Source: a virus
Direction: 5' to 3' (one strand)
IMG/VR virus record: IMGVR_UViG_3300008113_010061
Location: 1 to 60,327 of that record
Length of the DNA stretch: 60,327 nucleotides
The translations under genes were made by a program, and so were the position numbers. Positions 7,636 to 12,961 of the stretch are shown here, in pieces (position 1 is the stretch's first letter; every line of letters starts with the position of its first letter). The notes beneath the pieces were generated by a model, which made no database searches, was not told where the DNA came from, and saw only the letters and a list, made by a program, of their open reading frames with translations.

Positions 7636-8547
7636 ATGGCATTTAATAGTCTATCCGATCTTAGAAAATCCCGCGGTGGTTTTGACACCCTGATGAAGGA
7701 AGTGGACAAAATCAGTCAACCCGCAGGTGGCGAACGCAAAGAAGATGATCGCTTCTGGCAACCCACAGTCGACAAGGCTGGCAACGGTTATGCTGTCGTT
7801 CGTTTCCTACCTCCTCCCCGTGGTGAAGAACTTCCTTGGGTACGTATCTGGAATCATGGCTTTCAAGGTCCTACTGGCAAGTGGTACATTGAGAATAGCC
7901 TGACCACCATAGGCAAACCTGACCCTGTCAGCGAACTCAACAATGAGCTTTGGAACAGTGGCAGCGAAGCCAACAAGGAAATCGCCCGCAAGCAGAAACG
8001 CCGTCTGAGCTATGTCTGCAACGTCTATGTGGTGTCTGATCCATCTAATCCTAGCAACGAAGGCAAGGTCAAACTGTTCAAGTTTGGCAAAAAGATCTTT
8101 GATAAAATCAAGGATGTAATGCAGCCTCAGTTCCAGGATGAAGAGCCGCTGAATCCTTTTGACTTTTGGAAGGGTGCAGACTTTAAGATCAAGATCCGCA
8201 ATGTCGAGGGTTATCGTAACTATGACAAGTCTGAGTTCGCCAGTGCAGCTGCACTGAGTGACGATGATGCTGAAATTGAGAAGATCTGGTCAGCGGAACA
8301 CAGCCTGTCTGACTTCATGGATGAGCGTCATTTCAAGAGCTATGAAGAACTCAAGCGTAAACTGGAGCAGGTACTGAATGCCGCAGGTGCACCAGCAGTG
8401 CGTGCTGAGAGTGCTGATCTAGATATGCCGCGTGCAGCTGCTAAACCAGCTGCCGCTGTGGCTAAACCAGCACCCAAGGCTGAAGCCGATTTTGATGAGG
8501 ATGATGAAAGTCTAAGCTACTTTGCCAAGTTAGCAGCCGACGATTGA
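7636..8547 (+). CDS. gp32: gp32 single-stranded DNA-binding protein
   Basis: gp32 coats single-stranded DNA in replication, recombination and repair. The 303-residue length matches T4 (301). The N-terminus has the cooperativity region with LRKSRGG; the OB-fold core includes VVRFLPPPRGEELPWVRIWNHGF and GKWYIENSL. The C-terminus has a flexible Ala/Pro linker (about 255-283) and an acidic tail (DFDEDDESLSYF) that recruits partner proteins. T4 gp32 binds zinc with one His and three Cys after this point. The NHGF histidine is kept, but no Cys pair follows IENSL, so the zinc site is lost, as in cyanophage relatives. Start: ATG after AAGGAG. The 3' end overlaps the convergent minus-strand gene by 18 bases. 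Confidence 0.93.
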   Translation: MAFNSLSDLRKSRGGFDTLMKEVDKISQPAGGERKEDDRFWQPTVDKAGNGYAVVRFLPPPRGEELPWVRIWNHGFQGPTGKWYIENSLTTIGKPDPVSELNNELWNSGSEANKEIARKQKRRLSYVCNVYVVSDPSNPSNEGKVKLFKFGKKIFDKIKDVMQPQFQDEEPLNPFDFWKGADFKIKIRNVEGYRNYDKSEFASAAALSDDDAEIEKIWSAEHSLSDFMDERHFKSYEELKRKLEQVLNAAGAPAVRAESADLDMPRAAAKPAAAVAKPAPKAEADFDEDDESLSYFAKLAADD

Positions 8548-10956
8548 TTGTAGCAAATCTTGCTGCAGGGGGACTTCGGTCCCCTTTTTTACCATCATGT
8601 TGTTGGCCGGCGCCGGAGCGGGTGCCGGGGCCGGTGCTGCAGGCTGATTGATCACCACTGGTTTGTTGTTGGCTTCCTTGGCCACAGCATTGGTTTTGCT
8701 CAATCCATCAATTTTTTTGCTTGTCTGGTTAGACGTTTCCATGTAACGTTCTTTGGTCGCCATGTCTAGATTTCTTTGTTCCATGGCATTCATGGGCTCT
8801 GCCGCCATTCTGCCACCGACGTCTTCGCCATATAACTTTACATATTTTTCTTTGCGAGCAACATCCTGTTCCTCGTAGAGCTTTTGATATCTAGGATCTT
8901 TGGTGTAGTCCGTTTCCTTGGCAGCGGGTTTGTCTACAGGTTTAACCGTGGCTACGGGTTTAGGCGCAGGCGCAGGCGCTGTACCTGGTGCTCTGGGCGC
9001 CAAGGCGCGTTGTGCTTCGGGACTCAACGACGACATCCCCCGATTCGGCGCTGCGCCTTGCATGCCGGTCATTGGAGCAGGCGCTGCGCCTTCCATGCCG
9101 GTCATTGGAGCGGCCATGTTGGTGGTTGGCGTTACAGTTGGTTTGTCTTTGTTGGCAAAATATTCAGATTCTTTCTTGATGCGATCTGCTGCGGCCTGGT
9201 TGGCCATGTTGGGTGCTACAAAACCTCCAACCTTTTCTATGCCACGAGCCATGCCAGATTGAGCTTTTTCAAACCAAGACATGCGATTCCAATTGGAATC
9301 ATCGGCCTTGGTATCAAGCTTCAGATCTTCGCCCTTTTCATCTTTACCTACTCCGAGTTTTCCTGCGCCATAGTCTACCAGACGGCTTGCACCATACATG
9401 GCAGCTCCGGCAGCCACAGTAGCACCTGCGGTTGTTCCTAGTGCAGCTCGACCAAGATTTAGTGCGCCTCGACCCGCACTCATTATTCCGCTGCCGGCAC
9501 GTCCCAACAGTCTACCACCGCCGCGCATTATGTCACCTAAACCCAGTCCGCCCCCGGTTTCTTCTTCGGGCTTGGCCGCCGCCGCCATGGGCGCCGGCGT
9601 AGTGGCTGTTACTGTGGGTTTAGGTGGCCAGTCTTTGCCACCACCAGCGCCGGTATTGCCTGCGGACCAACCAGGTCCTCCGGATGCTGGTAACTTCAAC
9701 GGGCCACGTAGATTTACTACTGTGGCGGTGATGTTCATGGCGCCGCTCTTGGGCATGGCCATGGGCTGACCACGACCCGCAGGTACTGGCGTTGGTGATG
9801 CAGCAGTTTGACCGCCGCGACTCTGTGTCAGTGCTTCGGCGCGCGCACCTAGCCTGGCTCGATCTTCTTCTAGTCGATTGCCACCAAAGGTACGATCCAG
9901 AAAGTCACTGCCCAGATTGCTGGCATTTTTAGCATTATAGTCTTCAACCTTGCCACGGAAAAAGTTACCGGCAATTTTAGCTGCGCCGGCAATGCGACCC
10001 ATGCTGACTACTTCGCCTTTCTGAGCCAGTCTGCCTGCTTTACCTAATTCATTGTCCTTGGTTCTGCGTACTGCATTTTCGCCCATGCGCGGATCAAATT
10101 CATAGCCTTCTTTTAATACTTTCTGTTTGCCTGTGAGTGCACTCCAGGCATCACCCAGAGTACCAGCATCGCCACGCGCACCGCTACGAGCTCGATTGCG
10201 TGTATTTTCCAGCACGCCGCCAATTTTGCTCTTGGCTGCAGTATCGCCCGTGGTTTCTAATTCGCCGGCAATCTTGGCCAGCTCTTTGCGTAGCTCTGCA
10301 CTGTCTTTGGCGTCAGAGTCACGCAGTTTAATCAGTGTGTCTTCCAGACGTTGAAATAACTTGATTTGATCGTCCGTGGCATCTTTTAGCAGTTCGTCTT
10401 TCTTCTTGGTCTCGGCCACGAAGCGTTCAAAGGCTTCGGTGTTCTTGGCCATGGTGACTTCTTTGCCTGCACCCTTTTGGTACAGTTCGGCCTTCTCACC
10501 CAAGGTGGCGCCGATGTTGCTAAGTTTGCCGGCACGTTCTTCGCGCTGTGCATTCAGACTTTGTTCTGGTACTTCCTTGGCATCGACATCGATTACATCG
10601 TCACGTTGGCGTAACAGGGGTTTACGTGATGGATTGGGATCCTTGCCTGCAAAGGTCTTGAGATCCTTGCCTGCAAAGGTCTTGAGATCCTTGCGCATTT
10701 CTTTGAGTTCAGTACGCACGTCGCCAAGGGTGACATTTTTAGAATCACCCTTGGGTTTGGTCATGACCTTGACCTGTTCCACAACCTCGGTCTGCTTTTC
10801 CTGAGTTTCAGTGGTAGCTTTGCGCAGCTCTTCGAGCTTGGCAATCTGATCCTCGGCTCGCTTACGCTGTTCCTCGGATAGATTGCTGGCTGTAAGCATT
10901 CGCTGCTGAGCTTCCAGCAGACTTTCCAGACTTAGAGGTTCGGATTTCTTGGCCAT
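8530..10956 (-). CDS. Long helical protein, possible tail tape measure (gp29-like)
   Basis: This 808-residue protein has a charged coiled-coil N-terminus (about 1-90, 150-260), a Gly/Ala-rich hydrophobic stretch near the middle (about 480-545, RAALGTTAGATVAAGAAMYG), and a Pro/Ala-rich, low-complexity C-terminus (PAPAPAPAP). This layout, and its place downstream of gp26 and the gp51-like chaperone, fit a tape measure protein, the ruler that sets tail length and ends in the baseplate hub (gp29 in T4, 590 aa). Sequence identity to gp29 cannot be claimed by eye. It contains an in-frame duplication of DLKTFAGK and a repeat of PMTGMxGAAP. Its last codons contain the gp32 terminator in antisense. 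Start: ATG with AAAGAG upstream. Alternative: another internal virion or scaffold protein. Confidence 0.5.
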   Translation of the reverse strand: MAKKSEPLSLESLLEAQQRMLTASNLSEEQRKRAEDQIAKLEELRKATTETQEKQTEVVEQVKVMTKPKGDSKNVTLGDVRTELKEMRKDLKTFAGKDLKTFAGKDPNPSRKPLLRQRDDVIDVDAKEVPEQSLNAQREERAGKLSNIGATLGEKAELYQKGAGKEVTMAKNTEAFERFVAETKKKDELLKDATDDQIKLFQRLEDTLIKLRDSDAKDSAELRKELAKIAGELETTGDTAAKSKIGGVLENTRNRARSGARGDAGTLGDAWSALTGKQKVLKEGYEFDPRMGENAVRRTKDNELGKAGRLAQKGEVVSMGRIAGAAKIAGNFFRGKVEDYNAKNASNLGSDFLDRTFGGNRLEEDRARLGARAEALTQSRGGQTAASPTPVPAGRGQPMAMPKSGAMNITATVVNLRGPLKLPASGGPGWSAGNTGAGGGKDWPPKPTVTATTPAPMAAAAKPEEETGGGLGLGDIMRGGGRLLGRAGSGIMSAGRGALNLGRAALGTTAGATVAAGAAMYGASRLVDYGAGKLGVGKDEKGEDLKLDTKADDSNWNRMSWFEKAQSGMARGIEKVGGFVAPNMANQAAADRIKKESEYFANKDKPTVTPTTNMAAPMTGMEGAAPAPMTGMQGAAPNRGMSSLSPEAQRALAPRAPGTAPAPAPKPVATVKPVDKPAAKETDYTKDPRYQKLYEEQDVARKEKYVKLYGEDVGGRMAAEPMNAMEQRNLDMATKERYMETSNQTSKKIDGLSKTNAVAKEANNKPVVINQPAAPAPAPAPAPANNMMVKKGTEVPLQQDLLQSIVGC
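8569..8590 (+). terminator. Terminator of the gp32 transcript, inside the convergent gene
   Basis: GGGGAC (8569-8574), TTCG loop, GTCCCC (8579-8584), TTTTTT (8585-8590): a textbook rho-independent terminator for the plus strand. It lies inside the final codons of the minus-strand 808-aa gene, where it is read as KKGTEVP. On the minus strand no U-run follows, so it acts in one direction only. Confidence 0.88.
10641..10688. repeat. 24-bp tandem duplication
   Basis: Two exact 24-base units (10641-10664 and 10665-10688) are followed by a partial third (CCTTGC). On the minus strand each adds DLKTFAGK to the 808-aa protein, in frame. It looks recent. Confidence 0.85.
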
Positions 10957-10959
10957 GGT

Positions 10960-11289
10960 TTACTCTTTGGGTGTGTATACTCGGTTGTCATCATCGTCCT
11001 TGCTGGTGGCCGATGTCTCGGTTACAGCAATCTTTTCCTTGGTGCGACCATAGGCCGACACACCCAACACACCGCCCATGGCAATATGGAAGAAGCCTCC
11101 ATTCTGCAGCGTTATGGGCACCCATTGACGAAACGCATCATTGGCTGCTTCGGTCTCCCAGAATTGTACTAGGGTGAACAGGACCGGAAAAATTACAAAG
11201 TCTGCCAAGCAACAGACCATGTACATCCAGCCCATGGCAGGACGCCATTTATTCTGCATCCAATCTTCTTTAGTAGTTCCAGCTGCCAT
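10960..11289 (-). CDS. Three-helix holin (GTA/HP1-type 3TM)
   Basis: This 109-residue protein starts MAAGTTKEDWMQNKWRPAM, with a strong Shine-Dalgarno site (AAGGAGG) upstream; I prefer this to an earlier in-frame ATG 28 codons upstream, which lacks one and would overlap the gp51-like frame. Two clear membrane segments (about 20-42, MGWMYMVCCLADFVIFPVLF; and about 70-88, GGFFHIAMGGVLGVSAYG) and a weaker one between them fit the 3TM holin family first seen in gene transfer agents and HP1-like phages. The motif KWRP(A/L) before the first helix is typical. The end is acidic (SKDDDDN). It would open the inner membrane at lysis. Its place inside a tail-assembly cluster is odd. Start codon overlaps the preceding stop (TAATG). 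Confidence 0.75.
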   Translation of the reverse strand: MAAGTTKEDWMQNKWRPAMGWMYMVCCLADFVIFPVLFTLVQFWETEAANDAFRQWVPITLQNGGFFHIAMGGVLGVSAYGRTKEKIAVTETSATSKDDDDNRVYTPKE

Positions 11290-11477
11290 TATCGGCCTCC
11301 TTGTTGTTGTAAACGTTGATTTTCTTCTTCTAAGTGATTTACCAACAACATAATATAGATCTCCCTTTCCCACGGCATCATGTCTTCCAATTCAGACAAG
11401 CTATACTTATGATACTGCATTAAATTGAAGTTTGTCTGATAGTAACTAAACAAACTTTCATGAGAAAGGACTAGGCG
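11289..11477 (-). CDS. gp51-like tail/baseplate assembly protein, -1 frame extension of gp26
   Basis: The reading frame one base back from gp26 stays open for 62 codons past the gp26 stop and codes for a helical segment with YHKYSLSELEDMMPWEREIY and LEEENQRLQQQ. Short proteins of this pattern follow gp26 in marine T4-like phages and are called gp51 (baseplate hub assembly), although T4 gp51 itself is much longer. No start codon with a ribosome-binding site is found: the only ATG is 19 codons in and has none. The frame can be reached from gp26 at the slippery site 11483-11477, giving a fusion of about 292 residues. This resembles the G/GT tail assembly chaperones of lambda, which help fold the tape measure. 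The stop overlaps the holin start by one base. Confidence 0.7.
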   Translation of the reverse strand, partial: RLVLSHESLFSYYQTNFNLMQYHKYSLSELEDMMPWEREIYIMLLVNHLEEENQRLQQQGGR

Positions 11478-12166
11478 AAAAAACTGTTCATACCCTCCAT
11501 GACGACTTCATTGTGTTTTCCGCATTCCTTACAGTCCCACGCCATGTCATGTCGCAACACGGGCATGGTAACAAAGAAGTTTTCTAGACGGTCCAGTGTA
11601 GCTGGGTTTAAATTTTCTACAAATTCTACGAGTTCGGCTACACTGTAATCCTGGGCAGCAATGCGTTCATCGCCTTCCCAGATGCTGTCTATGCTGCCGG
11701 CAATCAAATTAATGATGCTGTCTATGTTGGATTCTGCCTGCATGGTGCTAAGATCCGTCAGCGTGGGATACCGCATCTCAATGCTGACATTGTTGTCAAC
11801 ATCTATGGTTTTACTGTGTTCTGGTTTGCGATCTACTTTGACTGAAGTCACATCCAGCTTGGCATCCTGCTTGGCTTCACAGCTGCAGGTCAGAACTATG
11901 TTGACAGTTTCTCCTACGCTGTGCGCGCGAATATTTAAGAACAAAAATTCAGCGTCAAAAGCCGGTAATTTTTCTGCATTGACTTTGCCAAAGGTACAGG
12001 CGTGTATAACTTCGTTGAGTGCAGAAATTTGCTGATCAGCACCGCCATTGGTGGCCATGAGCAGCAGTTTTTGTTCTTTGACTAAAAATGGACGAAACTC
12101 TATCCGTTCGCCAGTGCTGGGCAATTCAATTCGATGCTTGGGTGTTGTAAGCAATGGTAAAGACAT
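11471..12166 (-). CDS. gp26: gp26 baseplate hub subunit / tail chaperone
   Basis: This 231-residue protein matches the T4 gp26 family (208 aa in T4). It opens LPLLTTPKHRIELPSTG, then IEFRPFLVKEQKLLLMA, the most conserved block of the family, followed by ALNEVIHACTFGKVN and the hydrophobic FLFLNIRAHSVGE. Cysteine pairs CSC (about residues 106-108) and CKEC (about 214-217) may bind zinc. T4 gp26 takes part in assembly of the central hub; homologues are also seen as tail chaperones. Start: ATG after AAGGAG. The downstream gp51-like frame appears to be reached by frameshift at its 3' end. It lies between gp54 and the holin on the minus strand. Confidence 0.8.
   Translation of the reverse strand: MSLPLLTTPKHRIELPSTGERIEFRPFLVKEQKLLLMATNGGADQQISALNEVIHACTFGKVNAEKLPAFDAEFLFLNIRAHSVGETVNIVLTCSCEAKQDAKLDVTSVKVDRKPEHSKTIDVDNNVSIEMRYPTLTDLSTMQAESNIDSIINLIAGSIDSIWEGDERIAAQDYSVAELVEFVENLNPATLDRLENFFVTMPVLRHDMAWDCKECGKHNEVVMEGMNSFFA
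11477..11483 (-). other. Candidate -1 ribosomal frameshift site U_UUU_UUC
   Basis: On the minus strand the gp26 gene ends AGT TTT TTC GCC TAG. The heptamer T TTT TTC has the X XXY YYZ form in the correct frame, two codons before the stop. A -1 slip leads straight into the 62-codon gp51-like frame. Confidence 0.65.
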
Positions 12167-12184: not shown

Positions 12185-12961
12185 TTATACTTTCAATGCC
12201 GCGCGAGCGTTTGAACTAAGTCGACTACTATCTATTCGATTGTTGTTTGCTGTACCGCGCGAATTTCTGCTGCCCGCCACCTGTTGAGTTCTCGGTGTAT
12301 CTGATGGTGGCTGATTGCTGGTGGTCATGCTCATGCTTCGCCAGCGTCGATAGCACAATGTAACCGACATTTTAGTAACCTGATTGGTCATGTCATAGCC
12401 CAGACTAATGGGGTTGATGGCTATGGGAAATACATCCTCAAACACTGCGGTATAGTGTGCTCGATCATCTTCATCCAACTGTGTAATGGTCAGGCCCTGA
12501 CACATGTAGTTTTCAGGATAATGCACACAACCAGTGAACCGTCCAGTACGCACAACAACGCCGTCGACCCAGATGTCAAAAAATTCTTTTACAGTATACC
12601 ATTTGTCTAGCGCAAAGGTCATGCTAAGATTGTCGCCGCCGTAGTCTGCGCCTATGGGATGAAAACTAGGTGGTCCAAAAATTTGTTGTCTGGTGGTGAT
12701 GATGCGCGTGGGCGGCAACGACACCTGTTCACAGAATACGCTGAGTCTGGCGCCGATGCGACTGCTTATGGAATTCTGTGTTCGATATCTGCCGCCACTG
12801 GTCTTCAGACTCAGCGACTCATCTACACTGAATTGTTGCACGCAGGCCGGCACGGTAAAATTAACTTCATAGCGATTGGGCTTAGCCATGCCACGATCAG
12901 ATATCTCAGCCATGATGTCACTCAAACCATACTGCGCTTTGGGCATTAATTGATATGCCAT
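12185..12961 (-). CDS. gp54: gp54-like baseplate tail-tube initiator
   Basis: In T4, gp54 caps the baseplate hub and starts polymerisation of the gp19 tail tube. This 258-residue protein shows tube-type features also seen in gp19: NRYEVNFTVP at the start, LSVFCEQVSLPPTRIITTRQ, IFGPPSFHPIGADYGG and LSMTFALDKWYTVKEFFDIWVDG, then YTAVFEDVFPIAINPISLGY. These are the strands of the tail-tube fold. The C-terminal 45 residues are Ser/Asn/Arg-rich and look disordered. T4 gp54 has 320 residues. gp48, its usual partner, is the first gene on the opposite strand. Start: ATG after GGAAAG. Moderate confidence on the exact gp number; the tube fold is clearer. Confidence 0.65.
   Translation of the reverse strand: MAYQLMPKAQYGLSDIMAEISDRGMAKPNRYEVNFTVPACVQQFSVDESLSLKTSGGRYRTQNSISSRIGARLSVFCEQVSLPPTRIITTRQQIFGPPSFHPIGADYGGDNLSMTFALDKWYTVKEFFDIWVDGVVVRTGRFTGCVHYPENYMCQGLTITQLDEDDRAHYTAVFEDVFPIAINPISLGYDMTNQVTKMSVTLCYRRWRSMSMTTSNQPPSDTPRTQQVAGSRNSRGTANNNRIDSSRLSSNARAALKV

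Follow-up and report, generated by a model that had tools for sequence, protein, structure and literature searches.

The window, by which we mean the whole stretch of DNA analysed, is a virus record of 60,327 bases. The genes of interest lie on its minus strand in the order tube, chaperone, (holin-like), long protein, and the features discussed below are as follows.

12185..12961, minus strand: tail tube-like or baseplate tube initiator-like gene, immediately 5' of gp26 (phrog_45 tail tube, E 2e-31)
11471..12166, minus strand: gp26 gene, zero-frame product TAC-N of 231 aa (PF12322, E 9e-62; phrog_150; model pLDDT 92.5; N-domain like HK97 gp13, Z 7.6)
11493..11497, minus strand: Shine-Dalgarno (SD)-like GAGGG, presumed stimulator, 9 nt 5' of the heptamer (GAG codon and anti-SD duplex tests)
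11477..11483, minus strand: slippery heptamer U_UUU_UUC (X_XXY_YYZ phase; U_UUU_UUN in phase at 101/101 distinct junctions)
11471..11473, minus strand: zero-frame stop TAG of gp26 (read from the sequence)
11289..11477, minus strand: -1 frame segment of 62 codons plus TAA, gp51-like, the putative C-terminal domain of TAC-NC (phrog_634, E 1e-28; aligned to the C-terminus of T4 gp51)
10960..11289, minus strand: following gene, for a small holin-like membrane protein, with an ATG that overlaps the -1 TAA (PF11351 GTA_holin_3TM, E 9e-7; phrog_3427 holin)
8530..10956, minus strand: low-complexity protein of 808 aa in the tape measure position (synteny only)

Read on the minus strand from 12166 to 11471, the gp26 ORF ends in AAC AGT TTT TTC GCC TAG. 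A sequence-only reading of this DNA had already remarked that the gene ends on an in-frame U_UUU_UUC, and the heptamer (11483-11477) is indeed in the X_XXY_YYZ phase. The same reading placed it two codons before the stop, which holds only if the stop itself is counted, as one sense codon (GCC) separates the two. Following a slip, the -1 frame would read CGC CTA GTC... and is open for 62 codons (11477-11292), as described earlier; also as described, it ends on the start of the next gene, its TAA (11291-11289) overlapping the ATG (11289-11287). The predicted fused product has 230 + 62 = 292 aa, so the earlier arithmetic stands. The heptamer occurs 15 times in the window against 8.9 expected. Since the heptamer alone is not rare, its conserved position is what counts.

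The gp26 protein of the window belongs to the T4 gp26 family, matching PF12322 T4_baseplate at E 9e-62 with 209 bits against a cut-off of 24.5. The match to phrog_150 ('baseplate hub') spans gp26 and runs on into the -1 segment, and phrog_634 ('baseplate hub assembly catalyst') matches the -1 segment itself (E 1e-28). The structure of gp26 is predicted with a pLDDT of 92.5. In VIA, the top match of this model is the HK97 tail assembly chaperone gp13 (Z 7.6, rmsd 3.7, 83 aligned, residues 1-84), a middling Z that is below the Z 8 mark, and the second match has Z 5.2. This predicted resemblance of the N-domain to gp13 is used as supporting evidence only. Foldseek of the gp26 model against the PDB returned nothing significant, and neither a sequence profile search of the PDB nor a search of NCBIfam gave a match. 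Downstream, the 808 aa protein has no convincing family match in profile searches that would confirm by sequence its identity as tape measure; the gene at its position in the pelagiphage HTVC008M matches tape measure families, and synteny suggests the same role for the 808 aa protein. The holin-like gene (10960-11289, minus strand) sits between the chaperone gene and this presumed tape measure gene. As a separate observation, the middle of the -1 segment of HTVC008M (L082:6700-6887) differs from that of all relatives, ETYYDLIFKMTIYKSFVTL vs NYYKTNFALMQHHKYSL, as if by two compensating frame changes or sequencing errors.

Alignment of the gp26-gp51 junctions of related phages, which the sequence-only reading had proposed, finds a heptamer-type site in phase throughout: U_UUU_UUN lies near the gp26 stop at all 101 distinct junctions examined, drawn from Kyanoviridae, several Straboviridae, Pootjesviridae and unclassified T4-like phages. 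Among the junctions having enough flank, it is 0-2 codons 5' of the stop in 98 of 100. In the first-pass IMG/VR relatives (32-41% identity), both the site at this distance and the -1 segment are conserved (80/80 for each). Isolates with the site include the pelagiphages HTVC008M and Mosig, the Methylophilales phage Melnitz, the cyanophages S-SM2, P-SSM7 and BUCT-ZZ01, Straboviridae S13 and AsFcp_4, vibriophage K575, Rhizobium phage RHph_I9, Variovorax phage V45v66 and Pseudoalteromonas phage XG4. Scans for gp26 using the Rhizobium I9 and Pseudoalteromonas XG4 queries brought in only one extra locus. At all 101 junctions a T-ending codon is followed by TTT and then by TTN, and synonyms of these codons are common elsewhere in the same genes. 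The chance of this fixed pattern, given the codon usage of the same genes, is log10 P -42 by a naive calculation uncorrected for relatedness. On this comparison of sequences, conservation of the slip site is not a matter of chance.

A second conserved signal is the SD-like GAGGG upstream of the heptamer. E. coli dnaX has a known stimulatory SD at this kind of spacing. Simple presence of an SD motif is uninformative here (0.94 vs 0.93 in controls), and because the controls are also high, duplex energy and a GAG codon test were applied instead. GAG is found at the Glu position of the element in 58 of 81 cases vs 17.9 expected from each genome's own usage. Over the relatives, the anti-SD duplex has an energy of -7.19 vs -5.20 in synonymous controls (z -15), and the windows flanking the element give z -2.5 to +1.6 in the same test. 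By both measures the SD-like element is conserved beyond what the protein requires. The RNA 12-90 nt 3' of the slip site is more stable than synonymous controls by z -1.6, the distal control window giving +0.2, and RNAalifold on 95 fixed-register sequences found no shared downstream hairpin or pseudoknot. The SD-like element and the slip site together make a concrete, testable candidate for a recoding signal in abundant marine viruses.

The view of most databases is that gp51 is a separate small protein with its own start inside or after gp26, in which case the T run would be merely Phe codons. It is so annotated in HTVC008M, S-SM2, Melnitz, Mosig and P-SSM7, with starts at varied internal codons, and some other genome annotations leave the gp51 stretch empty. 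Starts are indeed available in places: TAATG overlaps supply one in phage PH4 and some vibriophages, some possible start codon for the -1 segment is present at 29 of the 101 junctions, and in the window the -1 ORF has TTG at 11453 as its first listed ATG, GTG or TTG. However, the other 72 junctions have none of the three from the upstream -1 stop to six codons past the slip site, that is, ahead of the conserved part. Codon 20 or 21 is the usual place of the first ATG, and the conserved stretch LSHDSL-NYYKTNF is located before it. Differences there, by -1-frame codon position, are 0.34/0.27/0.52, mostly in the third position, so the substitution pattern in this alignment is of the coding type. 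The first internal ATG, moreover, is without an SD, its mean duplex energy being +0.86 vs -6.4 at gp26 starts and -1.1 at random sites. These results bear out the earlier impression that the -1 frame is conserved and lacks a usable start. The T run and the GAG codon are also fixed more than the protein needs, and T4 gp51 is no small protein but a gp26-like one of full length. An independently started gp51 is accordingly a very improbable account of these junctions.

In principle it could be RNA polymerase, not the ribosome, that slips on the T run and so gives access to the second frame, since such a run is found each time and extends to eight T in some relatives. Most runs, however, have only six T. 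Polymerase slippage would need neither an SD-like element, which at its fixed spacing acts on ribosomes, nor a run in fixed phase with the codons, and both count against it; we consider it hardly credible. Poly-T runs in metagenomic contigs are also common error sites, so what is really one fused gene might appear to change frame through an error of assembly or sequencing. The same arrangement is seen at the 101 distinct junctions, isolate genomes included, and its conservation in independent isolates leads us to reject such an error, the probability of which is next to nil.

We therefore favor a programmed -1 frameshift: with a probability of roughly 0.92, the gene is a T4-like tail assembly chaperone gene that makes a lambda G/GT-type pair (TAC-N/TAC-NC) in this way. 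The sequence-only reading had proposed that a -1 frameshift joins gp26 to the gp51-like segment in a layout like that of lambda G/GT, and the comparative support for this is strong. We infer that the frameshift occurs, and likewise how often it does so and what the short and long forms do. The majority of ribosomes would continue to the gp26 stop and produce the 231 aa TAC-N. A minority would move one base back on U_UUU_UUC, stimulated by the SD-like GAGGG 9 nt upstream, and produce the 292 aa TAC-NC, the gp51-like segment forming its C-terminal helical domain. If the pair works as lambda gpG/gpGT does, the short and the long form would each bind the tape measure protein, with the C-terminal extension recruiting tube or hub subunits. 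T4 would instead obtain the counterparts of these two forms from its separate paralogous genes 26 and 51.

In T4, genes 26 and 51 are separate and divergently transcribed, and the T run is absent from the end of gene 26. T4 gp26 is homologous to the zero-frame product of the window, and T4 gp51 aligns with the predicted fused product near end-to-end across the slip site (hhalign 96.7%, E 4e-10; HMMER E 7e-13). T4 gp26 and gp51 both match PF12322 and are thus paralogues. Since gp51 resembles the fused product and is a paralogue of gp26, T4 has two genes, without a slip site, where the window virus would have one gene with a slip site. The frameshift proposed here is consequently not one of T4 gp26 itself. 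The T4 gp51-type model (pLDDT 87.5) has extra C-terminal helices where the -1 segment aligns; its VIA list contains no chaperone, and gp26 proteins are among its structural matches within viral proteins. With T4 gp51 as the query, a single-sequence search, which could miss diverged copies, found it in T4 and 44RR and gave no match in the other 15 records.

In some phages, namely Ackermannviridae and the vibriophages K446 and K476, the -1 frame encodes the C-domain but there is no T6 run. In K446, K476 and PH4, gp26 and the C-domain cistron are joined by a TAATG stop-start overlap, and to judge from this overlap in place of a slip site, their C-domain may be a separate protein. More generally, Ackermannviridae and some vibriophages seem to produce the C-domain on its own, which means that not every phage needs the fusion. 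In Vi01, SP1 and FKP10, the gp51-like -1 cistron lies just past the gp26 stop, with neither a T6 run nor an ATG, GTG or TTG, and has an ATT exactly at the place of the ATG in PH4's TAATG; an AUU start, or an unusual slip at ATT_TTC, is possible. The cistron is unannotated in Vi01 and SP1. It is a tentative proposal, to which we give somewhat less than even odds, that the frameshift is ancestral in T4-like hub chaperones along with a conserved internal SD stimulator, and that it later gave way to gene duplication (26 + 51) in Tevenvirinae and to a stop-start overlap, which releases the C-domain as its own protein, in Ackermannviridae and some vibriophages. If so, one chaperone pair would have three expression solutions, the stop-start type being without any fused form.

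Tail assembly chaperone genes of T4-like phages have been identified before (Vladimirov, Gautam & Davidson, 2022). One later paper cites that work for poly-T slippery sequences within T4-like TAC-N genes (PMC12846349), and another for T4-like phages that have one short and one longer fused gene in place of frameshifting (PMC10885494). At the family level, a frameshifted chaperone arrangement thus appears to have been described already, as far as the citing papers convey it, and the earlier impression that no such frameshift had been described is not borne out. Literature searches turned up no direct description of a gp26/gp51 frameshift, the prior work being reached only by way of citations; in the texts consulted we found neither the SD-like element nor a cross-family survey, although both may be in Vladimirov et al. 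(2022). The present results support the T4 hub chaperones gp26 and gp51 as counterparts of lambda gpG/gpGT. They also imply that the public genome records of cyanophages and pelagiphages, and of phages of Aeromonas, Cronobacter and Salmonella, truncate the gp51 part or leave it out.

One of the closest known systems is that of Vladimirov et al. (2022), which, as cited, concerns the same genes, T4-like hub chaperones with poly-T slippery sequences. HK97 gp13 (PDB 2ob9) resembles the predicted fold of the gp26 N-terminal domain at the Z, rmsd and aligned length given above, but the identity is 7% and gp26 is longer by about 145 residues. The likeness to lambda gpG/gpGT lies in the scheme and not in any demonstrated sequence relationship. 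The scheme is that of a chaperone gene with a -1 slip close to its end, from which a short and a long form arise. The heptamers differ, that of lambda being G_GGA_AAG. The gene layouts would be similar as well: in lambda, the chaperone gene lies between the tube and tape measure genes (PMC5009743), whereas in the window the chaperone gene is separated from the presumed tape measure gene by a holin-like gene.
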